From assembly GCA_019635775.1 (NCBI GenBank), contig JAHBYU010000014.1:62001-126000 (forward strand): a stretch of 64,000 nt of DNA, given 5' to 3'. A program made the translations under genes and the position numbers. The DNA comes from Rhizobiaceae bacterium. GTDB taxonomy: Bacteria; Pseudomonadota; Alphaproteobacteria; Rhizobiales; Rhizobiaceae. A model generated the notes under the pieces. It had not been told where the DNA came from and ran no database searches. It worked only from the letters and a program-made list of their open reading frames with translations. Shown here one piece after another: positions 1,827 through 16,889 of the stretch (position 1 is the stretch's first letter; each line of letters opens with the position of its first letter).

Positions 1827-3170
1827 TCAGGCCTTGAGAAGCAGGTGCTCGCGCTCCCAGGCGGTCACCACATTGTCGAACGCCTCCATCTCGCGATCCT
1901 TCACGCGAAGGAAGATGCGCAGGAACTCCTCTCCGAGCAGCGTTCGTGCCGGCTCGCAAGCCCGCAGCCGGTCGAGTGCATGCGGCAGGGAGAGCGGCAA
2001 CGTGCTCTGCGCCAGATAGACGTTGCCAAGCGCCTCGGGCCTGCGCCCCAGCCTTTCCTCGATGCCGAGATAGCCCGCCAGAAGCGTCGCGGCGATGGCC
2101 AGGTACGGGTTCGCGTCCGCTCCCGGAAGGCGGTTCTCCACCCGACGGGCGGACGGGTCCGCCTTTGGCACACGTAACCCGCAGGACCGGTTGTCGTGCG
2201 ACCATTCTACATTGGCCGGCGCGCTGAGGTTAGGACGCATGCGTCGATAGGAATTCACATGCGGCGCTAGCAGCGGCATGATCTGCGGCAGATAGTGCTG
2301 CAGGCCGCCCATGAAGTGATGGAACAACGGCGTGTCCTTGCCATCTTCTCCGGCAAAGACATTGGTCCCGCCGAAGTCGACAAGCGACACATGCAGGTGC
2401 ATCGCGCTGCCAGCATGGTCCTCCATCGGTTTGGCCATGAAGGTGATGTTCATGCCCTGGTCCACCGCTGCCCTGCGTGCGATACGCTTGAACACCACCA
2501 CCTGGTCGGCGAGTTCGATCGGGTCGCCATGCAACAGGTTGACCTCGAGCTGCGCCGACCCCGTTTCATGGCTGAGCGCATCGAGCGCCACGCGCGCGAC
2601 GGCGCAGTCCGCATAGATCCGTCGCATCACCAGGTCGAACTGCTCCAGCGCCTCCATATCGTAGGGGTTCTGCTCGTTTTCGCGGCGTCCATTCGCCGTG
2701 ACCGGCGCAACCACCGCATCGCGCGGGTCCGGGTTTGGGGCTGTGACGTAGAATTCAAGTTCCGGCGCGACGACCGCCTTCCAGCCCTTTCGAGCGTAGA
2801 GCGCAAGCACCTCTCGCAACAGAACGCGCGGCAGCGCGGGCCATGCGGCATCTTCCGGATAGCATGCATCGGCCAGCACCAGCGCGCGCTTCGGCCCGTC
2901 GCCTGGAAGAATGCGCAATGTTGCGGCATCGGGCATCAGGCGCATGTCCGGATCGCCATAGGCGAACCCTTCGTCGACAGAGCCGGAATAGCGCCCGTCG
3001 GCACACACGAGCATCACGCTTGTCGGCAGGTAGAGCGGAGATCCCTCAAGCGCCTTGAGGAACTTGGCGACGGGAAGCATTTTCCCGCGTGGCACGCCGT
3101 TCATGTCCGGAACGACGCACTCCACCTCTTCTATGCCGTGCTTCTCGATCCAGTCGGCCGCGTCACCCAT
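1827..3170 (-). CDS. glutamine synthetase-family gamma-glutamyl ligase (PuuA-like)
   Basis: A 447-residue type I glutamine synthetase fold. Visible active-site motifs: PELEFY (136-141), QLEVN (207-211), HLHVS (258-262), NSYRRMRP (306-313), NRSCGLRV (327-334) and ENRLPG (345-350), so metal, ATP and glutamate sites look intact. It lacks the adenylylation Tyr context of GlnA and its gene partners are amine transport and aldehyde oxidation. It therefore more likely ligates glutamate to an amine, as gamma-glutamylputrescine synthetase PuuA does. The start at 3170 leaves an 18-base gap after the aldehyde dehydrogenase. It is the last gene of the leftward operon. Amine substrate not determined; PuuB- and PuuD-type partners are absent nearby. 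Confidence 0.75.
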   Translation of the reverse strand: MGDAADWIEKHGIEEVECVVPDMNGVPRGKMLPVAKFLKALEGSPLYLPTSVMLVCADGRYSGSVDEGFAYGDPDMRLMPDAATLRILPGDGPKRALVLADACYPEDAAWPALPRVLLREVLALYARKGWKAVVAPELEFYVTAPNPDPRDAVVAPVTANGRRENEQNPYDMEALEQFDLVMRRIYADCAVARVALDALSHETGSAQLEVNLLHGDPIELADQVVVFKRIARRAAVDQGMNITFMAKPMEDHAGSAMHLHVSLVDFGGTNVFAGEDGKDTPLFHHFMGGLQHYLPQIMPLLAPHVNSYRRMRPNLSAPANVEWSHDNRSCGLRVPKADPSARRVENRLPGADANPYLAIAATLLAGYLGIEERLGRRPEALGNVYLAQSTLPLSLPHALDRLRACEPARTLLGEEFLRIFLRVKDREMEAFDNVVTAWEREHLLLKA

Positions 3171-3187
3171 GCATGATAACCGGAACG

Positions 3188-4711
3188 TCAGACATGCTTG
3201 CGTCCTCCCGCCTTGCGGAACCAGTCGTCGGGGTAAGGATACCACCAGTCCTGCACGACAGGCTTGTGGTCGATGATCACCATCTTCGTCCTGCGGAAGG
3301 CGTCAAGCCCCTGCCGACCCAGTTCACGCCCGATTCCCGATGCCTTCCAGCCGCCGAAGGGTAGCGCGTCGTTGTCGATCAGCGGGTTGTTGACCCACAC
3401 CATGCCCGCCTCAAGCCGCTCCGACGCTTCCATCGCCTCGGCGAGGTCCGTCGTGAAGATGGACGCTCCGAGCCCGAACGGGCTGTCATTGGCGAGCCTG
3501 ATCGCCTCGTCGAAATCCTTGACACGGCAGATCGCGGCGACCGGACCGAAGCACTCTTCGCGGCAGATCGCCATATCGGGCGTCACGCCGGTCAGGATCG
3601 TCGGCTCGTAGAACCAGCCTGTGTTGTGCGCGGGCGGAACACGCCCGCCCGTCACCGCCTTCGCGCCATGCGCGACGGCGTCGTCAACCAGACGCATGAC
3701 CTTGGCGCGCGCCGCTTCACTGACCAGAGGGCCGATCTCTGTCTCGTCCATGCCGTTGCCGATGCGCAGGGCACGCGTTTTCTCCGCAAAGAGTTCGACG
3801 AACCGGTCATGCACGGAATCGACCACGAAGAAGCGTTCGGCGGAGGTGCAGACCTGCCCCGAAAGATGGAACGCCGCGGTCACGCTGCCGGCTGCCGCGA
3901 CCTCCAGCGGCGCATGGGCCGAAACGATCAGCGGATCGCTGCCGCCGGCCTCGATCACGCAGGGCTTGGTTCGCTCTGCGCAGGCCACCGCAACGCGTCG
4001 CCCGGCCGCCACCGAGCCCGTGAACGCCACGGCGTGCGTGCGATCCGACTCCACCAGCGCCTTGCCGGTCGCCGCGCCGCCTGGAAGACAGGACACCAGC
4101 CCCTCCGGCAACGAGCGGAACACGGTCATGTAATCCAGCGTGGACAACGTCGTCGCCTCCGCCGGCTTGATGATGCAGGCATTTCCGGCAGCCAGAGAGG
4201 CGGCGACCGTCCAGCACATCAGCAGGATCGGGAAGTTGTACGGCATGATGTGCACCGACACGCCGTAGGGCTCGTAGCGCGCATACTGGAACGAACCCGC
4301 CTGCGTCGTGCCGGCGATCTTTCCGGCCTCGTCGCGCGCCATCTCCGCGTAGTAGCGGAAGATCGGCGCACAGTTGGCGATCTCGCCTATCGCTTCGGGA
4401 TAGGGCTTGCCCATCTCGCGAACCATCAGTTCCGCGCAGCGCGTGAAGTCCGCCGCCTCTATCGCGCCGGCGACCGCGTGGAGATGCTTCGCGCGCGTCT
4501 TCGCGTCGAGCGCCTTCCATGCCTTTTGTGCGTTCTGCGCAGCCGTCAGCGCCGCGTCGATCTCGGCCGGCGTCGCCTCGGCAATCGTGCCTGCCGTTTC
4601 CAGCGTCGCGGGATCGATGACCGGCCGCACGGGCCCTCCCATGTCACGATAGGCGGGGTTGATGAAGTAGACGGGACGATCGGGCGAGAACGCGTTCATG
4701 GACCTGCCCAT
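3188..4711 (-). CDS. NAD(P)-dependent aldehyde dehydrogenase
   Basis: A 507-residue class I/II ALDH. Seen: MPYNFP with the catalytic-site Asn (N159), cofactor Lys in IKPAEATT (K182), FTGSVAAG Rossmann loop, general base Glu in VIEAGGSDP (E254; the usual ELGG reads EAGG), and nucleophile Cys in SGQVCTSAER (C288). It resembles succinate- or gamma-glutamyl-aminobutyraldehyde dehydrogenases. The ATG at 4711 overlaps the cupin stop as TGATG; a GTG at 4714 is the alternative. Between an amine importer and a PuuA-like ligase it probably oxidises the aldehyde formed from the imported amine. The amine oxidase that would make that aldehyde is not in the operon. Confidence 0.85.
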   Translation of the reverse strand: MGRSMNAFSPDRPVYFINPAYRDMGGPVRPVIDPATLETAGTIAEATPAEIDAALTAAQNAQKAWKALDAKTRAKHLHAVAGAIEAADFTRCAELMVREMGKPYPEAIGEIANCAPIFRYYAEMARDEAGKIAGTTQAGSFQYARYEPYGVSVHIMPYNFPILLMCWTVAASLAAGNACIIKPAEATTLSTLDYMTVFRSLPEGLVSCLPGGAATGKALVESDRTHAVAFTGSVAAGRRVAVACAERTKPCVIEAGGSDPLIVSAHAPLEVAAAGSVTAAFHLSGQVCTSAERFFVVDSVHDRFVELFAEKTRALRIGNGMDETEIGPLVSEAARAKVMRLVDDAVAHGAKAVTGGRVPPAHNTGWFYEPTILTGVTPDMAICREECFGPVAAICRVKDFDEAIRLANDSPFGLGASIFTTDLAEAMEASERLEAGMVWVNNPLIDNDALPFGGWKASGIGRELGRQGLDAFRRTKMVIIDHKPVVQDWWYPYPDDWFRKAGGRKHV

Positions 4712-5436
4712 CACCGGATCATGTAGACCTTCTTGATCGTCTCATGCACGGTGCAGACGCCCTTCCAGTCCTGCGGGAAGAAGGCCGCCGTATCCGGCAC
4801 AATCTCGATGACCTCGCCGCTCTCGTGCACATAGGTGCAGCGCCCCTCCAGGAAGTGACAGAACTCGTCGCGCGTCACATGGCATTCCCACTTGCCTGGC
4901 GTGCAGACCCAAAGTCCGCATTCCGAACGTCCCTCCGGCCCCTTGTGGATTACCCGGCCGGACGTGCGGGATTCGCCCTCGATCATGGTCGGGATCACGC
5001 CCCAGTCCACGAGGTCGGTCTGTTCGAGTGGCTTCCTCATCAGCGGTGTTGTCGTCATTGTCTTTTCCTTTGTCGCCGGCCCATCCTCTGCCAGCATGTA
5101 AACATTGCGCATCGTCTCGTGGACGGTGCATTCCCCAGTCCAGCCGGCTGGGAACATCACCGCCGTCCCGGCCTCCACCTCGATCGTCTCGCCGCCGTCT
5201 TCCCGATAGGTCGCCCGCCCGGAAACGAAATGGCAAAGTTCGTCGCGCGGGATCGAAAGCCGCCAGCGTCCTTCCGTGCAGACCCAGATGCCAACCTCCG
5301 GCCGGTTGTCCGGTCCCTTGTGGACGAGCCTGCCCGACGATCGCGAAACGCCCTCGATTGCATCCGCCTGGACGCCCCAGTCGACCAGGTCGGTGCGCGT
5401 CGATGCCTCATGGAGATGCGGCGCGGATGACGTCAC
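4711..5436 (-). CDS. tandem double-cupin protein (fused duplicated cupins)
   Basis: 241 residues made of two homologous small cupins, residues about 1-117 and 127-241. Each copy repeats TDLVDWGV, an I-E-G-SR-SGR segment, HKGP, (W/L)WVCT and a terminal CTVHET..KVYM. They resemble the cupin_3 (DUF861) family, small barrels used as enzymes or sensors of amino and sugar acids. The linker contains an internal ATG at 5058 with its own Shine-Dalgarno, suggesting a recent fusion of two tandem genes or a second translation start. It overlaps the aldehyde dehydrogenase start (TGATG) and overlaps the upstream glycosyltransferase stop by 4 bases. Function unknown. Confidence 0.75.
   Translation of the reverse strand: MTSSAPHLHEASTRTDLVDWGVQADAIEGVSRSSGRLVHKGPDNRPEVGIWVCTEGRWRLSIPRDELCHFVSGRATYREDGGETIEVEAGTAVMFPAGWTGECTVHETMRNVYMLAEDGPATKEKTMTTTPLMRKPLEQTDLVDWGVIPTMIEGESRTSGRVIHKGPEGRSECGLWVCTPGKWECHVTRDEFCHFLEGRCTYVHESGEVIEIVPDTAAFFPQDWKGVCTVHETIKKVYMIR
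5058..5071 (-). promoter_or_regulatory. internal ribosome binding site and ATG between the two cupin halves
   Basis: On the minus strand AAGGA (plus-strand tcctt at 5066-5070) stands 7 bases upstream of an in-frame ATG at 5058, exactly at the junction of the two cupin repeats. The second repeat would then start MTTTPLMRKP. This is what is left if two neighbouring genes lost the stop codon between them, and it may still give a separate single-cupin product. Confidence 0.5.
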
Positions 5437-6707
5437 AGCAGCTTTTCCAGGAGGTCCGCAGCCTTTTCGGGTCCGTTCTGCGCCTGCATGTGCTTCGACG
5501 TCGCTGCAAGTTTCGACTGGATCGCCGGGTCACCGATGCAGGCGTCGAGTTTCGCGATCAGTTCGTCGTCCGTCCAGTCGTAGCGCGGCATCTTGAAGCC
5601 GTGGCCGGTCTCCTGCACGCGCGTCGCGTTGTCGTGACCGTCCCACACATAGGGCATGATGATCGCCGGCTTGCCGAAGAACAGGCATTCGGTGAACGAG
5701 TTGTTGCCACCGTGATGGATGACCGCGTCGACCTGCGGGATCACCGAAGGCTGCGGGAACCAGCTTTCGATGACGACATTGCCCGGAACGTCGGAATACT
5801 GATCCTTGTAGCCGCCGACATTGACCAGCGCCCGGTAGCGCGACTTGCCGATCGTCGCGATGATGCGCTTCAAAAGATCCGTGTCGCCCGCGCCGAGCGA
5901 GCCGAACGACACATAGACCAGCGGCCCGTCATCGTTCTTCGCGAAGGTCGGCACTTCGTAGGCCGCCTCCTTGCGCACGCATCCCTCCAGATACTGGAAG
6001 CGCTTCGGGTCGAGCGGCACGTTGCGCTTGAACTTCACGCTCTCCGGATAAAGCAGCAGGTTGAGATGCGGCGACGCCTCGAAGAACTGCCCGACCGGAT
6101 AGGGTTCCTCGCCGGTCGACTTAAGGAATTCGTTGAAGTCGTCATGGATCGGCTTGATCACTTCGTTGAAGCGGTCGCGATAGGCCTTGTGGCAGGCATG
6201 GTCGTTCTCGCCACAGCCCGAGAGATGCGGCGGAATGCCCTCGTCCTCTATCTCGTTTTCCGAGCAGGAGATGATGCGCACCCACGGCACGCCATACTGC
6301 TTGATCGCCGGAAACAGGATCACGTTGTCGACGCAGATGACGTCCGGCTTTATCCGCGCAAGCACGCCCGGCAGGTCCTTCTCAGCCCATTTCGCGCTGT
6401 CCACGATCGCCGTCCAGCAATCCTTCACGTAGTTGTCGATCTGGTCATAGGGTGACTTGGCGAAGTTCGGGATATGGCCGTTGATGAAGTCCTCCCAGAA
6501 TTTCGCCATCACCTCAGGCGGCATCGGCTCGGACAGGTTCACCGGATGCGCCTCGAAGCCGTAGCCCTGATAGACCTCGACGAAGCCGGGATCGGAGAGG
6601 AATACGGCCTTGTGTCCGCGCGCCTGCACGGCCTGCGCGATGCCGACCGAATTCAGCGCCGGCCCGTAGGCGGCCTCCGGGAAGAATGCGATGGTCTTGG
6701 CTGTCAT
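5433..6707 (-). CDS. GT1-family (MGT-type) glycosyltransferase, copy 1
   Basis: 424 residues, GT-B fold. The N-terminal acceptor half begins TIAFFPEAAYG; the C-terminal donor half has PLVYVSFGSLG (262-272), WFPQP (316-320) and HHGGNNSFTE (331-340), the counterpart of the HxGxxSxxE diphosphate-binding motif. The usual sugar-contacting DQ near the end is replaced by WDGHDNA (355-361). The start at 6707 has GGAGG just upstream; a longer frame would overlap the ATPase gene. It lies inside a polyamine-importer operon, 4 bases overlapping the cupin gene, and a paralogue sits at 11659-12927. Acceptor and sugar donor are unknown. Confidence 0.8.
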   Translation of the reverse strand: MTAKTIAFFPEAAYGPALNSVGIAQAVQARGHKAVFLSDPGFVEVYQGYGFEAHPVNLSEPMPPEVMAKFWEDFINGHIPNFAKSPYDQIDNYVKDCWTAIVDSAKWAEKDLPGVLARIKPDVICVDNVILFPAIKQYGVPWVRIISCSENEIEDEGIPPHLSGCGENDHACHKAYRDRFNEVIKPIHDDFNEFLKSTGEEPYPVGQFFEASPHLNLLLYPESVKFKRNVPLDPKRFQYLEGCVRKEAAYEVPTFAKNDDGPLVYVSFGSLGAGDTDLLKRIIATIGKSRYRALVNVGGYKDQYSDVPGNVVIESWFPQPSVIPQVDAVIHHGGNNSFTECLFFGKPAIIMPYVWDGHDNATRVQETGHGFKMPRYDWTDDELIAKLDACIGDPAIQSKLAATSKHMQAQNGPEKAADLLEKLL

Positions 6708-6721
6708 GTCTGCCTCCGGTC

Positions 6722-7789
6722 TCAATTCCTGAAGATGCGCGTGTCAGTCGCCGACCATCCGAGCTCCACCGGATCGCCGACGGCTAGTGGCCTGCGATCC
6801 GCCGTATCGGCGGTGATGCGGACGAGAAATGGTTTGTCGGCTAAAGGGGTCCGGACATGGAGCTGCAGGTCGAGGCCATGATAGGCAAGCGCCTCGATCC
6901 GGCCGGTCGTCCGGTTGGCGGTCTCTTCATCCGGGAACAGCACGATGCGTTCGGGCCGGATTGCGGCGAGCGCTGCCGCTCCCTGCTCCATGCCTTCCGG
7001 CAGCGCACCTGCGATGATCGACCCATCGCGCACAGCAACGCCCTGTCCCGCGATCATGCCAGCCGCGAAGTTCATCACGCCGATGAAGCCAGCGACGAAA
7101 GCGTCGGCCGGATGCTCGTATACCGCATGCGGCGTGTCGCATTGCAGCAGGCGTCCATCCCGGAGGACCGCCATGCGGTCCGCCATGACCAGCGCCTCCT
7201 CCTGGTCGTGCGTCACGACGATGAAGGTGATGCCAACCTCGTGCTGCAGGCGCTTCAGCTCGATCTGCATGTCGCCGCGCAGCTTCTTGTCGAGCGCACC
7301 GAGCGGCTCGTCCAGCAGCAGCACGCGCGGCCGTTTGATCAGTGCGCGCGCTAGCGCCACGCGCTGCTTCTGGCCGCCGGAAAGCTGATCCGGCTTGCGC
7401 TCGGCGAGCCCACCCAGCTGCGTCGTCGCCAGCATGTCGTCCACGCGCTTCCGGATTTCGGCGGAGGGCCTTCCTTCCATTTCGAGCCCGTAGGCGATGT
7501 TGGCGCGCACGCTCATATGGGGAAACAGCGCGTAGGACTGGAACATCAGATTCACCGGCCTGCGGTTCGGCGGCACGCGCGAAACGTCCGCGCCGTCGAG
7601 CAGGATGCGCCCGCCGGTTGGTGTCTCGAAGCCGGCGAGCATCCGAAGCAGCGTGGTCTTGCCGCAGCCGGAGGGCCCGAGCAGCGCGAAGAACTCGTTC
7701 TCGCGGATCGACAGCGACACACCGTCGACGGCAGTCAGCGTCCCGAACCTCTTGCTCACCTGATCTATCTCGAGCACCGGACGGCTCAT
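6722..7789 (-). CDS. spermidine/putrescine-type ABC transporter ATPase (PotA-like)
   Basis: 355 residues. Walker A GPSGCGKT (38-45), Q-loop FQSYALFP, signature LSGGQKQRV (136-144), Walker B LLLDEP (157-162), then a C-terminal TOBE-type domain from about 240. It energises the adjacent permeases at the inner membrane. The ATG at 7789 overlaps the permease stop as ATGA; the open frame further upstream is only the shadow of the permease gene. The PotA assignment follows from the PotD/PotB/PotC neighbours; the actual ligand could be another amine or amino-acid derivative. Confidence 0.9.
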   Translation of the reverse strand: MSRPVLEIDQVSKRFGTLTAVDGVSLSIRENEFFALLGPSGCGKTTLLRMLAGFETPTGGRILLDGADVSRVPPNRRPVNLMFQSYALFPHMSVRANIAYGLEMEGRPSAEIRKRVDDMLATTQLGGLAERKPDQLSGGQKQRVALARALIKRPRVLLLDEPLGALDKKLRGDMQIELKRLQHEVGITFIVVTHDQEEALVMADRMAVLRDGRLLQCDTPHAVYEHPADAFVAGFIGVMNFAAGMIAGQGVAVRDGSIIAGALPEGMEQGAAALAAIRPERIVLFPDEETANRTTGRIEALAYHGLDLQLHVRTPLADKPFLVRITADTADRRPLAVGDPVELGWSATDTRIFRN

Positions 7790-8580
7790 TGCCCGACCAT
7801 CCCCTTGTTGAGCCTTTGCGAGATCGCGAGCGCGATGACGCTCACCGCCATGACCAGCGTTGCCAAAGCGTTGATCTCGGGCGTGATGCCGAAACGGATC
7901 ATCGAATAGATCTGCATCGGCAGCGTGGTGGAGGCGCGCCCCGCGCCCGCTGTGAAGAAGGCGATGATGAACTCGTCCACCGACAGCGTGAAGGCCAGCA
8001 GCGCACCGGCCACCACAGCGGGCAGGATCACCGGCAGCGTCACCCGCCGGAAGGTCGTGAACCCCGAAGCGCCCAGATCCGCCGACGCCTCGGTGATCGA
8101 CCAGTCGAAGCTCTTCAGCCGCGCGCGCACCACCGCGCAGACGAAGGCGAGGTTGAAGACGACATGCGCCAGCACGATCGTGTGCAGCCCCATCGTCACG
8201 TTGAGCATCGAGAAGAAGGAAAGCAGCGCCACGGCCAGCACGATGTCGGGGATGATCATCGGCGCGAACACCAGCGCTTCGAGCACCGTTCCCTTGCGTC
8301 GTCTCGTCTCGACGCCGATCGCCAAGAGCGTGCCGAGCAGCGTCGCGATGATTGTCGACGCCACGGCGACGATCAGCGTGTTGAGCGCGGCATGCAGGAT
8401 GTCTCGGTTGGAGGCCAGCGAGACGTACCACTTGGTCGAGAAGCCCGACCAGACCGTCGGCAGTCCTCCGGCGTTGAACGACAGCGCCACCAGCACCGCG
8501 ATCGGAACATAGAGAAAGGCGAAGACGAGCACGAGGACGGTGGTGCCGCTGCGCCGCGCGGCTGCGGAGCGTTCGGCCAT
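7786..8580 (-). CDS. polyamine-type ABC transporter permease (PotC-like)
   Basis: 264 residues with six predicted membrane segments, beginning with a hydrophobic helix at residues about 14-35. The cytoplasmic EAA loop is visible as EASADLGASGFTTFRRVTLP, where the ATPase docks. Short N-terminus and length fit the PotC/PotI group. It overlaps both neighbours by 4 bases (ATGA), so expression is coupled to PotB- and PotA-like genes. Confidence 0.9.
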   Translation of the reverse strand: MAERSAAARRSGTTVLVLVFAFLYVPIAVLVALSFNAGGLPTVWSGFSTKWYVSLASNRDILHAALNTLIVAVASTIIATLLGTLLAIGVETRRRKGTVLEALVFAPMIIPDIVLAVALLSFFSMLNVTMGLHTIVLAHVVFNLAFVCAVVRARLKSFDWSITEASADLGASGFTTFRRVTLPVILPAVVAGALLAFTLSVDEFIIAFFTAGAGRASTTLPMQIYSMIRFGITPEINALATLVMAVSVIALAISQRLNKGMVGQ

Positions 8581-9443
8581 CAGGCGTCCTCCCTGACTGG
8601 CGCACTGCGCGTCGACGCCCGATCCGACGCATAGCCTTGCACGAGCAGCAACAGCATCATGATGGCGATCAGGGCTGCCGCCAGCGCTGCGCCGAATGGC
8701 CAGTCATTGGCGGTCAGGAACTGGTCGTAGACGAGGTTGCCGATCATCTGGAAGCGCCCGCCGCCGAGCAGCGCGGGGGTGACGAAATTGCCGATCGAGA
8801 GCACGAACACGAACACCGCCCCTGCCGCGATGCCCGGCATCGTCAGCGGCAGGATGATGCGCCGGAAGGTGGTGAAGGCCGAGCCGCCGAGATCGCGGGA
8901 GGCTTCCGCAAGCTCCGGGTTCAGGCGCGACAGTGGTGCGTAGCAGGCGAGGATGACGAAGGGCAGATAGTTATAGACCAGCCCCGCGATCACCGCGCCC
9001 TCGGTATAGAGCATGGAGGGGGGCTCGCCCGTGTAGCCGAACCACCGCAGCATTTGGGTGACCAGTCCTTCTCGGTTGAGCAGCACGATCCAGGCATAGG
9101 TTCGGATCAGGTAGTTGGACCAGAAGGGCAGCACGGCGAAGAACAGCAGCACCGGCTGCAGCGAACGGCGGCACGATGCAATGGCGTAGGCAGCCGCATA
9201 GCCGATGACAACGGCGATCAGCGTCGCCGTGCCGGCGATGCGCGCCGAGTTCAGGAAGATGCCCGCATAGAGCGGATCGACAACCTTCGCGAAATTCTCG
9301 AGCGTGAAGGTGTAGTCGACCCCGCCATAGATGCCGCGCTGGAAGAACGCCAGCGCCAGCACCAGCCCGCACGGCACGACCATGAGGCCGATGAGCCAGG
9401 CCAGCGCCGGCATCATCAGAAGGGTGGGACGGGAGGTCGTCAA
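8580..9443 (-). CDS. polyamine-type ABC transporter permease (PotB-like)
   Basis: 287 residues, six membrane segments, with an EAA loop reading EASRDLGGSAFTTFRRIILP. The first helix spans about residues 8-30 and the protein has the larger periplasmic loop (about 35-65) typical of PotB/PotH. It is the second gene of the operon, 31 bases after the binding protein, and overlaps the PotC-like gene by 4 bases. Confidence 0.9.
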   Translation of the reverse strand: MTTSRPTLLMMPALAWLIGLMVVPCGLVLALAFFQRGIYGGVDYTFTLENFAKVVDPLYAGIFLNSARIAGTATLIAVVIGYAAAYAIASCRRSLQPVLLFFAVLPFWSNYLIRTYAWIVLLNREGLVTQMLRWFGYTGEPPSMLYTEGAVIAGLVYNYLPFVILACYAPLSRLNPELAEASRDLGGSAFTTFRRIILPLTMPGIAAGAVFVFVLSIGNFVTPALLGGGRFQMIGNLVYDQFLTANDWPFGAALAAALIAIMMLLLLVQGYASDRASTRSAPVREDA

Positions 9444-9473
9444 TCTAAGGTTCCCGTCCCGCGACCACGCAGA

Positions 9474-10532
9474 TTACTGCGCCGCCTTGATCTCGCTGAC
9501 GATGCGCGAATATTCACGCTGCGCCTCGCCGACATCGCGAAGGACTTCGTATTTGGTAAGTTCGTCCACCGGCATCGCCATGTTCGGATAGGTCGTCGAC
9601 AGCTCGGCTGGCAGACTGTCCATCGCCGCCTTGTTCGGCACCTTGTAAAGGATGTTTTCCGCGGCCCAGGCGTGGTTCTTGGCGTCCAGCATGAAGTTGA
9701 TGAATTCGAAGGCCGCGTCCTTGTTCTCGGACGCCTTCAGAACAACCATGGTGTCAAGCCAGAGGTCGGAGCCTTCCTTCGGGATCACATACTTGATGTC
9801 GGCGTTTTCACCGATGCCGTAGTTGCACCAGCCGTCCCATGCCTGCACGAGAACCGCTTCGCCGGAAACCAGCTTCGAATAGAAGGTCGTGTCGTCATAG
9901 GCGAGTAGCGTCTTCTTGGCGTCGATCAGCGTGTTCTTCACCTGCTCCATCTTGGCCGGATCGGTCTCGTTGACGGAGAAGCCGTCGGCAAGCTGGCCGG
10001 CCGCCAGCAACCAGCGGTCGGTTGCCAGCATCGTCGTCTTGCCCTTCACGTCGTCGGACGGCTTGAGGAGGTCATTCCAGGAGGTCGGCTCTGCCTTGAG
10101 CAGGTCGGAACGGTAGCAAAGGCCCGTCGTACCCCAGGTGTAGGGGACCGAGAAGGTGTTGCCCGGATCGTATGCGAGCTTCGTCGCTTCGGGATAGAGG
10201 TTTGCAAGGTTGGGTATCTTGGAGGCGTCGATCGTCTCCGCCAGTCCCATCTTGTTCAGCACTTCCGCGAAAGGCGAAGACACGAAGACCACGTCATAGC
10301 CCTTGCCGCCAGAGGCGATGAGCTTGCCCATGATCTCTTCGTTGGTCGCGTGCTTGACGACCTCACCCGTATTGCCCGTCGCCGCCTTGAAGGCTTCCAT
10401 GGCGTCTGGCGCCATGTAGCCGTCCCAGTTGGAGATGACGAGATTGGCAGCACTTGCGGTTGACGCCAGTGCGGCAAGCGTCAGGCCCAGCAGGATTGCA
10501 GGTGCGGCGCGGCGGCTGTTCGTGTTCTTCAT
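9474..10532 (-). CDS. polyamine-type ABC substrate-binding protein (PotD-like)
   Basis: 352 residues. The start at 10532 has GGGAG upstream and gives a signal peptide (basic MKNTNSRR, hydrophobic core, A-S-A-A cleavage). The mature start NLVISNWDGYM matches the PotD family, where this early Trp helps bind the amine. SVPYTWGTTGLCYR and LVQAWDGWCNYG are further family-type segments. First gene of the leftward operon and divergent from the GntR regulator. Ligand preference cannot be fixed from sequence. Confidence 0.88.
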   Translation of the reverse strand: MKNTNSRRAAPAILLGLTLAALASTASAANLVISNWDGYMAPDAMEAFKAATGNTGEVVKHATNEEIMGKLIASGGKGYDVVFVSSPFAEVLNKMGLAETIDASKIPNLANLYPEATKLAYDPGNTFSVPYTWGTTGLCYRSDLLKAEPTSWNDLLKPSDDVKGKTTMLATDRWLLAAGQLADGFSVNETDPAKMEQVKNTLIDAKKTLLAYDDTTFYSKLVSGEAVLVQAWDGWCNYGIGENADIKYVIPKEGSDLWLDTMVVLKASENKDAAFEFINFMLDAKNHAWAAENILYKVPNKAAMDSLPAELSTTYPNMAMPVDELTKYEVLRDVGEAQREYSRIVSEIKAAQ

Positions 10533-10711
10533 GGCAGACTCCCATTGTCGCGTTGTAAGTGTCGCGGTGTCGCAGTTCAGGCGCATCCGCGGTTGTTTGT
10601 CCGTCGCAGCGCCATTTACGTTCCCCGGCTTTTTTGCCGAATTTTGCCAACAGTATTATTGAAACAAAAAAAACGTCAATCCATAATCGCGACGGCATAT
10701 GAAAGCTCTCC
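10533..10711. promoter_or_regulatory. divergent promoter region of the glycosyltransferase/polyamine unit
   Basis: This 179-base gap separates the PotD-like gene (left) from the GntR gene (right) and must hold both promoters. It contains an AT-rich core (10655-10685) and a direct repeat of TTTTGCC within 10630-10650. No TGGTnnnACCA FadR-type site is visible here, in contrast to the gaps at 21.4 and 33.6 kb. Confidence 0.5.
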
Positions 10712-11659
10712 ATGCAGACAGTTCGCAAAAGGCCCCGCTCAAACCACCTGGATCTTGCCCAGCGCATCCTTGAGGCCGTTCGGCGTGGCGGATTTCGCTC
10801 CGGGGACCGCCTGCCCGAGCAGCAGATCGCGACGCTGTGCAGCGTTTCGCGCACGCCGGTTCGCGCTGCGCTCCAGCTTCTGGCCGATCAGGGAGTCGTT
10901 CATCGGGAAAAGACGTCAGGCTTCACGCTCGCCGTCGATCCGTCCGGCGCAACCGGCGCTGTGTCCGAACTGCCTCCTGCGGAGGAAAGCCGGCTTGCCG
11001 AATCCATCCTGCGCGACCGCGCGGCCCGCAGGCTTGACGACACTGTAACAGCGTCGGCCCTCTCGCGGCGATATCAGACCGACAAGAGGACGGTACTAAA
11101 GTCACTAAAAATACTGGAGGCGGAAAACTGGATCGAAAAAGCCCCCGGTCAGTCATGGTTGTTCCAGGCCGCCCAGGATGGTCCCGAGGCAGCCGCCGAG
11201 AGCTACGACTTCCGCCTGATGCTGGAGCCGGCGGCCTTGACGGCTCCGGGCTTCAAGGCGGACGAGGCGCAGGCCACGGCGTTGCGTCTCGGCATGGAGG
11301 CACTTCTGGCTTCGCCGGAATCAGGCTTCGACGTGCGCGAATTCCAGCGGCTCGACATGGCCTTCCATGCCATGATCGCGCAGGGCGCGGCCAACCGCTT
11401 CGTCGGCCAGAGCCTGGAGGATCATCTCCGGCTCCGTCGCCTGCCGGGAATGCTTCACGGCGTCAACGTCTTCCGCTTGAAACAGTCCACCCGCGAGCAC
11501 CTCGCCATCCTCGACCAGATCGAGGCAGGCCAGTTCGAGGCGGCGGCGGATCTCATGCGGCTGCACCTGCGGCTTTCGCGCAGCCAACGGCCGCAGGCGG
11601 CGAGCCGGGGGGCGCCCGTGCTTCCGGCAACGGCGCAGGCCATCCGGGGCCGGCGCTGA
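10712..11659 (+). CDS. GntR-family regulator with two winged-helix segments and FCD-like domain
   Basis: 315 residues. An N-terminal GntR winged helix (about 12-75; LPEQQIATLCSVSRTPVRAA) is followed by a second helix-turn-helix-like segment (about 88-145; SRRYQTDKRTVLKSLKILE), then an all-helical effector domain (about 160-300) with FCD-like LDMAFHAMIAQGAANRF and TREHLAILDQIEAGQF. A double DNA-binding arrangement is unusual for GntR proteins, which normally carry one. It is divergent from the import operon, so it most likely regulates it, and its TGA overlaps the second glycosyltransferase start (TGATG). Confidence 0.82.
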   Translation: MQTVRKRPRSNHLDLAQRILEAVRRGGFRSGDRLPEQQIATLCSVSRTPVRAALQLLADQGVVHREKTSGFTLAVDPSGATGAVSELPPAEESRLAESILRDRAARRLDDTVTASALSRRYQTDKRTVLKSLKILEAENWIEKAPGQSWLFQAAQDGPEAAAESYDFRLMLEPAALTAPGFKADEAQATALRLGMEALLASPESGFDVREFQRLDMAFHAMIAQGAANRFVGQSLEDHLRLRRLPGMLHGVNVFRLKQSTREHLAILDQIEAGQFEAAADLMRLHLRLSRSQRPQAASRGAPVLPATAQAIRGRR

Positions 11660-12927
11660 TGGCGCGCGCAGCCCCCACCATCGCCCTGTTTCCCGAAGCA
11701 AGTTTCGGCGCGGCGCTCAACTGCGTGGGCATAGCGCAAATGCTTCGCGATCGGGGAGCCCGCCCGGTCTTCATCTGCCATCCCGGCTTCACGGGGCTCT
11801 TTGCCGACTACGGTTTCGCGGAACATCACCTGCCGGCAGCCGGCGGGTCGAAGGCCGACACCTGGCAGGATTTCGTGCGGCGCCATCTGCCCCACTTCAA
11901 CCTTTCGCCCGCCGAACAGCTCGACACCTATGTCGCGCCGACATGGCAGGCGATCGTCGATACGGCGATCGACGCCGAGGAGGGCCTTGGCGACCTGCTT
12001 GCGAGGCTCAAGCCCGACGCCGTCGTCCTCGACAACGTGATCATGTTCCCCGCGCTCGCAAACTCCGGCATCCCCTGGGTCAGGGTCGTCTCCTGCGCGG
12101 AGACGGAACTGCCCGACCCTGACGTGCCGCCTTACCTTTCCGGTCTCGCTGCCGACGACCCGTCGCGCGCATCCTTCGAGGCGCACTATCTGCAGGCGGT
12201 CGCCCCGGCGCATCAGCGCTTCAACCGCTTCCGGACCGAATGCGGCCTGCCGTCTCTTCCTGCCGGCGAATTCCTCGAGCCGTCGCCTTGGCTGAACCTG
12301 TTGCTTACGCCCGCCATCGTGAAGCGCGAGCGCGCAAATCCGCTCGACCCGGAAAAATTCGTCTATCTCGAAGGTTGCGTGCGCAGCGAAGGCCCGTTCG
12401 ATCCTCCCGAATTCCCGTCTGGAGAAGGTCCGCTGGTCTATCTCGGTTTCGGCAGTCTCGGTGCGAGCGACGTCGACCTCATCGAGCGCATGCTCTCCGT
12501 TTTCGCGACGTTCCCGGCGCGCTTCGTCGTCAATGTCGGCGGCTTCCGCGAAGCTTATCGCGCGGTGCCGGACAATGTGTATCTCGATGGCTGGTTTCCT
12601 CAGCCTTCGGTCGTCGCGCAATGCGATCTGTTCATCCATCACGGCGGCAACAACAGTTTCTGCGAGGCCCTTCATTTCGGCGTGCCGTCGCTGATCATGC
12701 CCTATTGCTGGGATGGCCACGACAACGCTCAACGCGCCGTGGAAGCAGGCGTCGGGTTGCGGCTGGACCGCTCCTCGTGGAAGCCCGGCCAACTGGTCTC
12801 CACAATGAAAAGCCTGCTTGACGACGACGCGATGCGTCAAAGGCTTCGCGCCAACGCGGCAAGGATGGCGCAGACGCCGGGAACGGCGCGCGCCGCCGAT
12901 TGCGTCCTCGCGCTGCTCTCCCGCTGA
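11659..12927 (+). CDS. GT1-family (MGT-type) glycosyltransferase, copy 2
   Basis: 422 residues, colinear with the copy at 5433-6707 along its whole length: TIALFPEASFG at the start, PLVYLGFGSLGASD, WFPQP, HHGGNNSF (327-334) and WDGHDNA (351-357) instead of the usual DQ-containing sugar contact. It starts inside the GntR stop (TGATG at 11657-11661), so translation is coupled to the regulator. Having both copies on opposite arms of one divergent promoter suggests duplication and division of labour (two acceptors, two donors, or a heteromer). Substrates unknown. Confidence 0.8.
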   Translation: MARAAPTIALFPEASFGAALNCVGIAQMLRDRGARPVFICHPGFTGLFADYGFAEHHLPAAGGSKADTWQDFVRRHLPHFNLSPAEQLDTYVAPTWQAIVDTAIDAEEGLGDLLARLKPDAVVLDNVIMFPALANSGIPWVRVVSCAETELPDPDVPPYLSGLAADDPSRASFEAHYLQAVAPAHQRFNRFRTECGLPSLPAGEFLEPSPWLNLLLTPAIVKRERANPLDPEKFVYLEGCVRSEGPFDPPEFPSGEGPLVYLGFGSLGASDVDLIERMLSVFATFPARFVVNVGGFREAYRAVPDNVYLDGWFPQPSVVAQCDLFIHHGGNNSFCEALHFGVPSLIMPYCWDGHDNAQRAVEAGVGLRLDRSSWKPGQLVSTMKSLLDDDAMRQRLRANAARMAQTPGTARAADCVLALLSR

Positions 12928-13256: not shown

Positions 13257-15803
13257 CTATCGCTTCAGCGGCCTTGCCGCCTTGAAGAAGTCCGCCCAGT
13301 GGTCGGGGCCTTTCAGCGCCTTCTCGAGCGCTGGCGATCCGATCGCGAAGTCGGCGGGCCCTACTCCGTCGCGCAACATGTCGAACGTCACCGGCACCGC
13401 GACCGTCGCCTTCGGCTTGGCGCGTGAAGACCAGGGCGCGACCGCCGTCGATCCGCGTCCATTGCGCAGATAATCGACGAAGATACGGCCCGTCCGCGCC
13501 TTCTTGGAAAGCACAGACGTATAGCGGCCTGGGTCGGACTGTTGCATCGCCTTGGCGAAATCATGCGCGAAGGTCTTCACCGTGTCCCAGTCTTCCTTGG
13601 GCTTCAGCGGGACGACGACATGGAAGCCCTTGCCGCCGGTCGTCTTCACGAAGGCCGGCAGGCCGAGCTGGTCGAGCCTGTCCTTCACGTCCAGCGTCGC
13701 AGCGCGAACGTCCTTCACGCCAAGCCCTTCGTCCGGATCGAGGTCGAAGATGATCTGGTCCGGCGTCTCGATGGCGTCGAGCGTCGAGCCCCATACATGC
13801 ACCTCGACGACGCCGAACTGCACAAGGGCGGCCAGCCCGTCGAAGCTATTGATCGACAGAACTTCCCCTCCGTCGTGCGGATCGCGGGTCCGGATGATCG
13901 CCTCGTGCATGCCCTTCGACGCATGCTTCTGGAAGAAGCGCTCTCCGTCGATCCCGTCCGGCGCACGCACCAGGCTGAGCGGCCGGTCGACCACGAAGCG
14001 CTCCATGTGCGGCCACGCCTTCTCGTAATAGTCGAGCAGGCCTTGCTTGCTCAGCCCGGCCTCCGGCCACAGCAGCTTGTCGGGACTGGTCAGGGTCACG
14101 GACATGGCCTTGCTCCGTTTCGCAGGGGACTTGGGGGCAGCACGCATCCGGCGCGATGGCGCTTTGGCAGCGCGTTTGGCAACGGCCTCGCCAGCCTCGT
14201 CGTCAGCGTCAGCTGGCGCCGGCGTTTCCGCTACCACCTCGTTTGCCGGCTTGTCGTCGCGCAGTCCCTGGAACGAGGCCTGCCTGAGCACTCCGTCGTG
14301 GGTCCAGCTTCTGAACTCTACCTCGGCGACCAGTTCCGGCTTCACCCACACCACTTCGCGGTCCTTCGCCGCCTCACCCGAAACGGCTGCCTTCTTCGCC
14401 CGGATCTTGTCGAGCCGCGCCTTCAGATCGTGCAACACTGCGCCGGAAAACCCGGTGCCCACCCGGCCGCCATAGCGCAGCTTTCCATCCCTGTAGTACG
14501 CCACCGCAAGCGAGCGCAGCCCGCGGCCCGCCGCCGTCGAGGGCACATAGCCCACAATCACGAACTCCTGCCTCAGCGTGCATTTGGTCTTGACCCAATC
14601 GCGGCTGCGCCCGCTTTCATAGGGCGCGTCGGCCCGCTTGGAGATGACGCCCTCAAGCTCCATCTTGCAGACATGCGCGAGAAGGGTCCGGCCCGGCTCC
14701 GTGAAATCCTCGCTGTAGTGAAGCGGCGACTTGGCGCTCGGCCTTCCGATCAGCTTGCGCAGTCTGGCCTTTCGCTCCGAAAGGGGCTCGCCGCGCAGAT
14801 CTCTTCCGTCGAGCCACGGCAGGTCGAAGGCGTAATAGAGCATGCCCCCGGTCCGGCCTGCGGACAACGCTTCCTGCAGCGCCGAGAACGAGGCCACGCC
14901 CTTTTCGGAAAGCACGACGATCTCGCCATCGAGAATGGCGTCGCGGCAATCGAGCCTGGCAAGGCTTTCCGCGATCGGTAGACCGAACTTTGTCGTCCAG
15001 TCGAGGCCCTTGCGCGTAAAGAGCTTAAGGTCGTCCTCGCTGACATGCGCCTGGATCCGGTATCCGTCGAACTTTATTTCGTGCAGCCATTCATCTCCTT
15101 CGGGCGGGCTGGAGCGCAGCGTCGCAAGTTCGGGCTCGATGAAACCCGGCTTGGGCATGCGCTTCCCGCGCGCCGCATTATCTTTTTTCGCAGCGGTCCC
15201 GTTCTTGCTCTCTGCCTTGCGGGGCGGCGGCTTGCCTTCCTTGACGTCCTCCACCGTTCGGCCGGACTTCACCGAGCGGGGTTCTTCCTCAAGGATGTCC
15301 GTTCCGCCCGGACGCGCAAAGGCGTCTTCAGCCTTGATCAGCAGCCAGTTGTCACGCTTCTCGCCCGGTTTCGGCTTCAGGCGCACGAGGTCCCACAGCC
15401 CGCGCAGCTTTTCACCCTCAAGCTCGAAGCGCAGGTGCCCCTTCTTCAGGCCCCATTCGGGATCGAATTCCGGCACCCACTTGCCTTCATCCCAGACGAT
15501 CACAGTGCCCGCGCCGTAGCCTTCTGGAATGATCCCCTCGAAATTCCGATAGTCCAGGGGGTGATCCTCGACATGGACGGCCAGCCGCTTGTCAGCAGGA
15601 TCGAGGCTCGGGCCGCGCGTCACCGCCCAGCTCCACAGCACGCCGTCATGTTCAAGGCGGAGGTCATAGTGCAGACGGCGCGCGTCGTGCTTGTGGATCA
15701 CGAAGGCTCTGCCCGCGCCTCCCCCCGAGGTTCCGTTTCTACCCTTCGGCTCCGGTGTCCGGCTGAAGTCTCTCTTGGCGCGATAGGGTTCGAGCTTGCC
15801 CAT
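13257..15803 (-). CDS. ligD: ATP-dependent DNA ligase D (NHEJ)
   Basis: 848 residues with the order phosphoesterase - ligase - polymerase. The 3'-phosphoesterase (about 33-185) shows FVIHKHDARRLHYDLRL; the ligase has the adenylation motif EIKFDGYR with Lys 244; the C-terminal primase-like polymerase (about 570-848) shows HVWGSTLD and IIFDLDPDEG. A basic linker (about 195-215) and another near 550 separate the domains. It repairs double-strand breaks with Ku, whose gene ends 9 bases upstream. Length and domain order match the usual proteobacterial LigD. Confidence 0.95.
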   Translation of the reverse strand: MGKLEPYRAKRDFSRTPEPKGRNGTSGGGAGRAFVIHKHDARRLHYDLRLEHDGVLWSWAVTRGPSLDPADKRLAVHVEDHPLDYRNFEGIIPEGYGAGTVIVWDEGKWVPEFDPEWGLKKGHLRFELEGEKLRGLWDLVRLKPKPGEKRDNWLLIKAEDAFARPGGTDILEEEPRSVKSGRTVEDVKEGKPPPRKAESKNGTAAKKDNAARGKRMPKPGFIEPELATLRSSPPEGDEWLHEIKFDGYRIQAHVSEDDLKLFTRKGLDWTTKFGLPIAESLARLDCRDAILDGEIVVLSEKGVASFSALQEALSAGRTGGMLYYAFDLPWLDGRDLRGEPLSERKARLRKLIGRPSAKSPLHYSEDFTEPGRTLLAHVCKMELEGVISKRADAPYESGRSRDWVKTKCTLRQEFVIVGYVPSTAAGRGLRSLAVAYYRDGKLRYGGRVGTGFSGAVLHDLKARLDKIRAKKAAVSGEAAKDREVVWVKPELVAEVEFRSWTHDGVLRQASFQGLRDDKPANEVVAETPAPADADDEAGEAVAKRAAKAPSRRMRAAPKSPAKRSKAMSVTLTSPDKLLWPEAGLSKQGLLDYYEKAWPHMERFVVDRPLSLVRAPDGIDGERFFQKHASKGMHEAIIRTRDPHDGGEVLSINSFDGLAALVQFGVVEVHVWGSTLDAIETPDQIIFDLDPDEGLGVKDVRAATLDVKDRLDQLGLPAFVKTTGGKGFHVVVPLKPKEDWDTVKTFAHDFAKAMQQSDPGRYTSVLSKKARTGRIFVDYLRNGRGSTAVAPWSSRAKPKATVAVPVTFDMLRDGVGPADFAIGSPALEKALKGPDHWADFFKAARPLKR

Positions 15804-15812
15804 GACGCACCG

Positions 15813-16700
15813 TCAGGACTTCTTCTTGCCCGGCGACGATTTCTTGCCGGACGAACTGTTGCCGGACGAGGCCTTGGCGCCGGCCTTTTTCGGCGGATCG
15901 TCGTCGTCTCCCTTGCCGTCGCCGGAGGCAAGGCTCTTCTTCAGCGCGTCGAACAGGTTGATGACGTTGGACGGCTTTTCGTCCTCCTTGCGCGCCGGCG
16001 CTTTCTTGCCCTTCTTCTGATTCTTTTTGATGAAGTCGATCACCGCCTTCTCGTAGCGATCCTCGAATGTCGAGGGATCGAACTTGCCCTTTTTGCGCTC
16101 GATCACTTTGGTAGCCAGCTCCAGCAGGTCGGGATCCACCTTGACCTTCTTGCCGCCATCATAGGCATCTTCGGCCTGCCGCACGGTATCGCCATAACGC
16201 AGCGTCGTCAGAAGCATGCCCTTGCCCAGCGGCTCGATCAGGCAGGGCCGCTCGCGCTGGTAGAGGACGACACGCGCCAGCCCGGCCATCTTCTGTTCTT
16301 CCAGCGCCTGCCGGATGACCGCGAATGCCTCCTGTGACACCTTGTCGGCAGGCGCCAGGTAGTAAGGTTTGTCCAGATAGACAGGATCGACATCGGCCTT
16401 GCTGGTAAAGCTCTCGAGGTCGATCGTGTAGGACGACTCGATCTTGACGCCCTCTATGTCCTCGTCCTCGATGAGCAGGAACTCGTCCTTCTCCACCTCA
16501 TAGCCACGCACTTCGTCCTTCTCGCTGACGGGCTTGCCGGTCTGCTGGTCGATATATTGCCGGCGGACGGCATTGCCGGTCTCGCGGTTCAGCGTCCTGA
16601 ACGAGACCTTTTCAGCCTGCGTCGTCGCACCGTATAGCTCGACCGAACAGGTTACGAGCGACAGCTTCAGGTAGCCTTTCCAGGCGGGGCGGGGGGCCAT
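15813..16700 (-). CDS. ku: Ku protein, NHEJ end binding
   Basis: 295 residues. The Ku bridge core runs from about 5 to 225 (WKGYLKLSLVTCSVELY, LNRETGNAVRRQYID, GYEVEKDEFLLIEDEDIE), followed by a Lys/Ser/Gly-rich tail that ends SSPGKKKS. Such tails contribute to DNA binding or LigD recruitment in bacteria. The ATG at 16700 is chosen over a GTG at 16712 because it starts the conserved MAPRPAWKG. First gene of the ku-ligD operon, divergent from an SDR gene. Confidence 0.95.
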   Translation of the reverse strand: MAPRPAWKGYLKLSLVTCSVELYGATTQAEKVSFRTLNRETGNAVRRQYIDQQTGKPVSEKDEVRGYEVEKDEFLLIEDEDIEGVKIESSYTIDLESFTSKADVDPVYLDKPYYLAPADKVSQEAFAVIRQALEEQKMAGLARVVLYQRERPCLIEPLGKGMLLTTLRYGDTVRQAEDAYDGGKKVKVDPDLLELATKVIERKKGKFDPSTFEDRYEKAVIDFIKKNQKKGKKAPARKEDEKPSNVINLFDALKKSLASGDGKGDDDDPPKKAGAKASSGNSSSGKKSSPGKKKS

Positions 16701-16889
16701 GACCAACTCCACTCCAACACGCCCAGCTTAAGCTCACGAAACGCAAACGGAAAGACAGACGCGTAAAGACGCGCCGAAAACGGCGCAGGTTCATGACAAA
16801 TGCCGACATCGACCGGTTGGTTCCGCCCTTGGCCGCTTCACCGGAGGGTCCAGCCCGGATAAGGTGCCGTACACTATCAGGAGGAACGA

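Follow-up and report, generated by a model that had tools for sequence, protein, structure and literature searches.

A recurring gene unit that links two GT1-type glycosyltransferases to a polyamine-type importer

Why should two glycosyltransferases (GTs) be encoded among genes for the import and oxidation of amines? The question is raised by a divergent gene unit at positions 1827-12927 of a 64,000-nucleotide stretch of DNA (hereafter the window) from a Rhizobiaceae bacterium (assembly GCA_019635775.1, contig JAHBYU010000014.1, positions 62,001 to 126,000). One arm encodes a PotABCD-like ABC importer, a GT1-type glycosyltransferase (GT-A), a double cupin, an aldehyde dehydrogenase (ALDH) and a glutamine synthetase (GS)-like ligase; in the other, a GntR/FCD regulator is followed by a second GT1-type glycosyltransferase (GT-B). 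Because this arrangement recurs across lineages, the association of its genes exceeds chance assembly, and we tentatively propose, as a possibility somewhat short of likely, that the unit catabolizes an imported amine-bearing compound that carries a sugar during some of the steps.

A preliminary description of this DNA had depicted two closely packed divergent arms with a second, colinear GT1 enzyme behind the GntR gene. This picture is borne out: all the genes that it named are present where it placed them, the gaps and overlaps agree, and GT-B is 46% identical to GT-A over 423 columns. The long arm runs in the order PotD, PotB, PotC, PotA, GT-A, double cupin, ALDH and GS-like ligase, with successive gaps of 30, -1, -4, 14, -4, 11 and 17 bases that rest on start codons chosen among several possible ones, whereas the two genes of the short arm overlap by a single base.

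Recurrence of the unit across genomes

For an estimate of how firmly the genes belong together, loci encoding GT-A were collected from 80 named genome loci (the best 80 of at least 574 relatives, with weaker relatives under-sampled), six plasmid loci and further genomes; there is kinship among these loci, and Mesorhizobium stands in the title of 44 of the named 80. One further locus (L152) was set aside, there being no GT-A in its stretch. The strict recount applied identity limits to 104 loci, took as denominators the loci with enough flanking DNA, and left out the duplicates L147 and L148 (repeats of L064 and L074), which are still included in the laxer count and in the counts of GS, residues, pocket, element and half-sites given below. 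In this recount, GT-A is accompanied by PotA in 98 of 103 loci, by PotD in 94 of 98, by the cupin in 96 of 97, by ALDH (at least 55% identity) in 94 of 95, by GntR (at least 40%) in 87 of 95 and by GT-B (at least 50%) in 85 of 93. A laxer count includes PotA matches at L159 and L160 and GntR matches at L156, L158 and L162 that are only about 31-38% identical.

The same association emerges from 199 genomes drawn evenly from the order, with GT-A sought at 60% identity or more and the PotD subfamily at E 1e-70. Each is present in 13 genomes: 12 have both, one has GT-A alone, one has PotD alone and 185 have neither (Fisher p 3e-17, uncorrected for kinship). In two of the 12 double-positive genomes (G038 and G114), GT-A and PotD are found on separate short contigs. 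The exceptions are G079, with two GT-A copies, and G055, which encodes a PotD at 48% identity with no recognized unit neighbors. Among the plasmid matches listed, all 11 records with a PotD of at least 50% identity also have a GT match, and the next one listed, a PotD of Rhizobium etli Mim1 (49%), has an altered pocket. The preliminary description would have regarded the link as accidental had the GTs mostly lacked the importer and ligase elsewhere; for the importer, the link holds in these loci and genomes. The R. etli Mim1 relative lies in a cluster with electron-transfer flavoprotein (ETF) subunits, a dimethylsulfoniopropionate (DMSP)-lyase-family protein, a choline dehydrogenase and a molybdopterin oxidoreductase; the neighborhoods of these closest GT-less PotD relatives, in R. 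etli Mim1 and G055, gave no clue to the ligand.

With respect to its reach, the arrangement recurs across Alphaproteobacteria and in a genus from a different class within the phylum, with parts of it in haloarchaea and actinomycetes. Both arms are present on annotated plasmids of Rhizobium daejeonense, Shinella, Pararhizobium and Ruegeria, and the closest named GT-A relative among the matches listed (94%) comes from a metagenome assembly titled Mesorhizobium. The unit is uncommon overall in the phylum, in which 8 of 398 genomes drawn, including that of the window, have a match at E 1e-60; three of these eight belong to the one genus of another class and carry both arms. Across Proteobacteria, the core consists of PotDBCA, GT-A and ALDH together with cupin domains, which usually number two to four. 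Two haloarchaea encode a GT-A of 60-61% identity together with a cupin and ALDH, beside a sugar kinase and a phosphohexomutase, and polyamine-type genes are found within about 12 kb of this core: in one genome GS, FAD oxidases, an amidotransferase, an aminotransferase and an ABC importer upstream, and in the other a Pot-type transporter downstream. Moreover, of three actinomycete plasmid loci examined, those of a Streptomyces and a Nonomuraea have PotDBCA genes (about 50-55%) beside a GT of 36-37% identity, accompanied in one of the two by ALDH.

A few loci depart from the common layout. L161 and L162 have a tandem pair of double cupins, that is, four cupin domains, where others have one double cupin. 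On a Pseudomonas frederiksbergensis plasmid (L045, 11869-13267), a GT-B-like match in several pieces is followed by a short FAD-oxidase-like stretch, with type VI secretion genes within the same 25 kb. In genome G079, one GT-A copy adjoins cupins and a Peripla_BP_6 binding protein, and another adjoins an ALDH, an EamA transporter and a family 3 binding protein.

The ligand pocket and the glycosyltransferase active sites

What might the importer carry? In Escherichia coli PotD, an aromatic box and an Asp hold the polyamine. The unit resembles the PotABCD system in its adjacent four-gene ABC set, of which only PotA scores above its NCBIfam cut-off, and in the retention of the Trp, Tyr and Asp residues of the pocket (W36, Y39, W232, W258 and D260). 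It differs in that Glu171 of the E. coli protein is aligned with Trp174, and that Trp235 is added in comparison with most Pot-type proteins nearby. Both Trp174 and Trp235 are present in all 100 of 100 unit PotDs, as against 1 and 2, respectively, of 23 other Pot-type proteins nearby, which mostly have Gln or a gap at these positions. Both actinomycete PotDs retain the pocket, Trp174 included. That the pocket stays constant while the enzymes vary suggests that the lineages share a single ligand, a compound with an amine at one end and something different, perhaps neutral or aromatic, at the other.

A search of the genome with GT-A at E 0.001 gave no matches besides the two GTs, and both show the two-domain GT-B fold (a fold name, as distinct from the gene label used here) and have GT1 relatives. 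The catalytic-base position is occupied by Pro in 107 of 107 GT-A proteins and by Ala in 91 of 91 GT-B proteins, whereas Glu11, the donor motif HHGGNN, H332, E340 and D356 are invariant in all 198. We take HHGGNN, E340 and D356 to be the nucleotide-binding motif of the C-terminal domain. Both subfamilies lack the usual GT1 catalytic base while keeping the nucleotide-sugar site and an invariant Glu. Because the base is lost, we infer a nitrogen acceptor: in the plant enzyme UGT72B1, the H19Q substitution reduces the kcat of O-glycosylation to 1/300 and that of N-glycosylation only to 1/2, according to PMC8558338, which cites an earlier paper.

GT-A matches macrolide-type GT models weakly (118 bits, cut-off 260), and the solved structures closest to it are spider mite UGTs, well ahead of the bacterial YjiC and OleD. 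The Tetranychus urticae enzymes UGT203A2 and UGT202A2 have His at the base position (in GHVN and GPGHLN) where GT-A has GPALN, and DQ in the donor motif where GT-A has DG. Mite UGTs are thought to derive from bacteria, and the GT-A family may be close to their bacterial donor.

Shared control, accessory enzymes and possible sugar recycling

Both arms share a conserved regulatory element between the PotD and GntR genes (Table 1). Its consensus contains the dyad GTAYT-N12-ARTAC, which is imperfect in the window (GTATT and AAAAC), and the window element comprises two interlocked divergent promoter-like sequences, as against 0.1 expected from shuffles. Of 91 divergent PotD-GntR gaps, 86 contain the core ACGTCAA. 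An inverted-repeat signal was also detected, one four-base dyad being shared by 10 of 24 chosen gaps versus at most 4 in 30 shuffled sets. Among 85 elements, the half-sites combine as GTACT with AGTAC in 45, as GTATT with AATAC in 28 and otherwise in 12, including the window. Searches allowing up to three mismatches found a single site per genome in 7 of the 12 searched, with no further site in these seven, and the reversed pattern gave no site in the 12; since there was no site outside the unit in these genomes, no missing oxidase was revealed, and viral contigs contained no exact match. One shared element ties both GT arms to one switch, and the GntR/FCD protein would be expected to bind it. 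The preliminary view that the GTs belong with the importer is thus upheld by this element as well as by the locus counts.

The GS-like ligase presents a different picture. Its orthologue is present in 47 of 107 loci, a count that includes short stretches past whose ends a GS gene could lie, and in 36 of the 76 loci with room on both sides; the remaining 60 of the 107 have no GS within the stretch covered. We therefore rejected the ligase as a general core member and keep it as an accessory part with unit-specific orthology. In 43 loci it lies in the GT-B arm and is followed in all 43 by an FAD-dependent oxidase of the DAO family (30-32% identical to one confirmed as such), and in four, including the window, it lies at the end of the GT-A arm, with the oxidase in none. 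Loci without GS include those of Rhizobium, Shinella, Defluviimonas and the genus of another class, and the Rhizobium type carries instead a saccharopine-dehydrogenase-like gene plus a second ALDH. The window GS is 63-64% identical to the GS of three Mesorhizobium-type genomes, whereas no other GS gene of the seven genomes searched exceeds 46%, which marks the two as orthologous. Compared with the gamma-glutamylputrescine synthetase model NF045547, it scores 177 bits against a cut-off of 650, and is only loosely PuuA-like.

These results partly revise the preliminary description. It had tied the GTs to the ligase, which does stand in the window unit, but a general link fails. It had also noted that PuuB- and PuuD-like genes are absent; this is true of the window unit, although the oxidase is present wherever GS lies in the GT-B arm. 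Its broader notion of an amine-related unit with integral GTs stands, whereas gamma-glutamylation, with GS an accessory, is only partly right.

The ALDH is matched best by the NCBIfam models of betaine-aldehyde and aminobutyraldehyde dehydrogenases, below the cut-offs of both. The double cupin has a Cupin_3 assignment and a predicted fold (predicted local distance difference test, pLDDT, 91.7), with the DUF861 protein 3myx as top match and 1sef, 1sfn and 1rc6 (E. coli YlbA) among the others; no NCBIfam model matched at E 0.001. It is like the DUF861 double cupins, YlbA included, in Pfam cupin type and double-barrel fold, and unlike them in that identity to these four structures is only 8-16%. 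YlbA acts as (S)-ureidoglycine aminohydrolase, breaking a C-N bond, and by analogy the unit cupin could hydrolyze a glycosylamine in a similar reaction, the weakest step of the model outlined below.

Genes for reuse of a sugar occur in some units. In 8 of 97 loci, an AmgK-like kinase gene separates the cupin gene from that for ALDH; these eight represent four or five genera. The kinase matches models of AmgK, the anomeric sugar kinase of cell-wall recycling, but below the cut-off of 500 (246 and 226 bits in the two scanned); moreover, five genomes searched (G248, G251, G017, G131 and G045) have a second, separate AmgK-like paralogue elsewhere, 39-43% identical. In both haloarchaea, the core is flanked by glucokinase-like and phosphohexomutase genes that score below the cut-offs of their best models. 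Either route would turn free hexose into hexose-1-phosphate.

Table 1. Predicted features of the unit in the window (positions 1827-12927)
Feature	Positions	Strand	Assignment
GS-like ligase, accessory, unit-specific orthologue	1827..3170	-	Pfam Gln-synt_C 329 bits (longer start scanned)
Aldehyde dehydrogenase (ALDH)	3188..4699	-	Pfam Aldedh 503 bits
Double cupin, EutQ-like / DUF861 type	4711..5436	-	Pfam Cupin_3, two stretches
GT-A, GT1-type glycosyltransferase, Pro at catalytic-base position	5433..6707	-	
PotA-like ATPase	6722..7789	-	NCBIfam TIGR01187 371 bits, above cut-off 355.6
PotC-like permease	7786..8580	-	NCBIfam PotC model 248 bits, cut-off 326
PotB-like permease	8580..9443	-	Pfam BPD_transp_1; PotB model 245 bits, cut-off 348
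PotD-like binding protein, subfamily with invariant modified pocket (W174, W235)	9474..10532	-	
Conserved operator/promoter element CAGTAYTATT-N5-AAAA-N3-ACGTCAAT	10651..10680	+	between PotD and GntR
Sigma-70-like promoter towards PotDBCA-GT-A, TTGACG-16-AATACT	10652..10679	-	consensus match only
Sigma-70-like promoter towards GntR-GT-B, TTGAAA-17-CATAAT	10659..10687	+	consensus match only
GntR/FCD regulator	10712..11659	+	Pfam GntR 68 bits, FCD 61 bits, both above cut-off
GT-B, second GT1-type glycosyltransferase, Ala at catalytic-base position	11659..12927	+	

Adjoining the unit at 13257-16712 is a LigD-type DNA ligase/primase region (Pfam), in which the gene at 15813-16712, a neighbor of the LigD-type gene, has a Ku-like look, judged by eye only.

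A proposed transient sugar and the alternatives

How might these parts work together? If, as we tentatively favor, the amine is catabolized while bearing a sugar, the importer, which by sequence belongs to a special PotD subfamily, would bring in one particular amine compound, and GT-A, probably with GT-B, would transfer a sugar from a nucleotide-sugar to its nitrogen, as the fold and the donor-site residues would allow. At the other end of the compound, an enzyme that differs between lineages would generate an aldehyde by oxidation, which ALDH would convert to an acid. Candidates for the former enzyme are GS together with the FAD oxidase in units of the Mesorhizobium type, an FAD oxidase in a few others and perhaps the saccharopine-dehydrogenase-like protein in the Rhizobium and Shinella types. 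Judging from the gene content of relatives, the sugar would then be removed again, perhaps with the help of the cupins, and, where the enzymes are encoded, converted to sugar-1-phosphate by the AmgK-like kinase or by glucokinase and mutase. The GntR/FCD protein, acting at the one shared element, would switch both arms together. Such a pathway would be a sugar counterpart of gamma-glutamyl protection. We consider doubtful the bolder version in which transient N-glycosylation is an obligatory step in bacterial and archaeal amine catabolism, the base-less GT1s form a dedicated, hitherto unrecognized class of N-glycosyltransferases and the cupin is a glycosylamine hydrolase.

Several observations weigh against catabolism with a transient sugar. 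All 198 GTs have Gly (G357) at the usual Gln position of the donor motif, a replacement that may have changed the donor or the activity. Furthermore, Asp is the most frequent residue at the base position of the control GT1s (12 of 16, with Asn in two, Ser in one and His in one; a 17th intended control, L027, had no usable frame), so that the plant His mutant offers an indirect comparison. We know of no activity for these cupins and recognized no glycosidase among the window unit genes using Pfam, so that release of the sugar is a guess, and sugar-kinase genes occur in a minority of loci, with none in the window unit. Likewise, no oxidase was recognized among the window unit genes; the genome has one match (E 1e-30) to the oxidase of locus L146, located outside the unit on contig 7 beside another GS. 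Genome G079 has two GT-A copies (72-73%) near other transporters, without the PotD set, and hence the GT core can pair with transporters other than PotDBCA; in the third actinomycete locus, on a Streptomyces plasmid, a GT stands alone without unit neighbors. GS and oxidase can also outlive the GT part of the unit: two genomes from the same family (G069 and G136; L177 8448-9277 and L178 9306-10406) have lost the importer arm and GT-A, leaving a GntR fragment, a short GT-B remnant (residues 3-35 and 334-420) and, in one, an ALDH tail, whereas the GS and FAD oxidase frames are intact. As for the element, it is absent in 5 of the 12 genomes, two of them remnant-only, and the half-site agreement may reflect few evolutionary events, because one half-site form dominates in Mesorhizobium.

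There are four rival explanations. The imported compound might already be a glycosylated amine, with the GTs running in reverse to place its sugar on a nucleotide diphosphate (NDP) and the amine part being oxidized; W174 and W235 in the PotD pocket could stack a sugar, GT1 reactions are reversible, and kinases for free sugar sit in some units. Yet most pocket residues for an aliphatic amine are kept, and an NDP-sugar made directly would render those kinases needless, so we regard reversal as unlikely. Alternatively, the GT product could be a stable glycoconjugate of the imported amine that serves in storage, osmotic balance or detoxification, with ALDH and the others acting on a side product. 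This would accord with the mostly conjugating role of GT1 enzymes and with the role in detoxification of the mite UGTs, the closest solved structures. The combination of an ABC importer with an ALDH in 94/95 loci points, however, to nutrient use, no exporter was recognized among the window unit genes, and a stable conjugate would have no need of sugar kinases. Because routes for phosphorylating free hexose occur in some units, we favor a sugar that is put on and then removed, and hold the stable conjugate to be distinctly unlikely.

It is improbable that the GTs are no longer transferases and serve as ligand-binding or regulatory proteins of a plain oxidative amine pathway: the replaced base and the Gly at the Gln position, both without exception in the 198 proteins, would be expected of such proteins, whereas the invariance of HHGGNN, Glu340 and Asp356, and the maintenance of two separate invariant subfamilies together in 85/93 loci, would not. 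An ordinary gamma-glutamyl pathway of the Puu type with the GTs as incidental neighbors seems to us very improbable, despite the importer family and the joining of GS and FAD oxidase in the Mesorhizobium-type unit. GS is confined to fewer than half of the loci (47/107), while GT-A tracks PotD (12/1/1/185), and in the two genomes that keep GS and oxidase with only a GT-B fragment, the importer and GT-A are both lost; therefore, the GTs follow the importer and not GS. In the window, the unit does share with the E. coli Puu pathway polyamine-type import, an ALDH and a ligase of the GS family; Mesorhizobium-type relatives also have an FAD oxidase in common with it, and, if our preferred explanation holds, so would be the shielding of one amine while another part is oxidized. 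It differs in having an ABC importer rather than PuuP, a GS far below the PuuA model cut-off, and GTs and cupins that are added and conserved where GS is not. Nor did Pfam detect a class I amidotransferase, as expected for PuuD, among the genes of 1827-12927, and by the features tested (PuuA, PuuB and PuuD) the unit is not a member of the Puu pathway.

We found no description of this recurring unit among the open-access papers listed in searches directed at the unit, at its combinations of genes or at glycosylated polyamines, as judged by titles and the beginnings of abstracts, and the words glycosyl and glucosyl are absent from the main text of PMC9397018. If catabolism with a transient sugar proves true, glycosylation would gain a role in the primary catabolism of small amines and join glutamylation, acetylation and succinylation as a new protecting-group strategy. 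It would also suggest functions for a GT family that existing models match weakly, for DUF861 double cupins, and for a PotD subfamily annotated plainly as spermidine/putrescine-binding.

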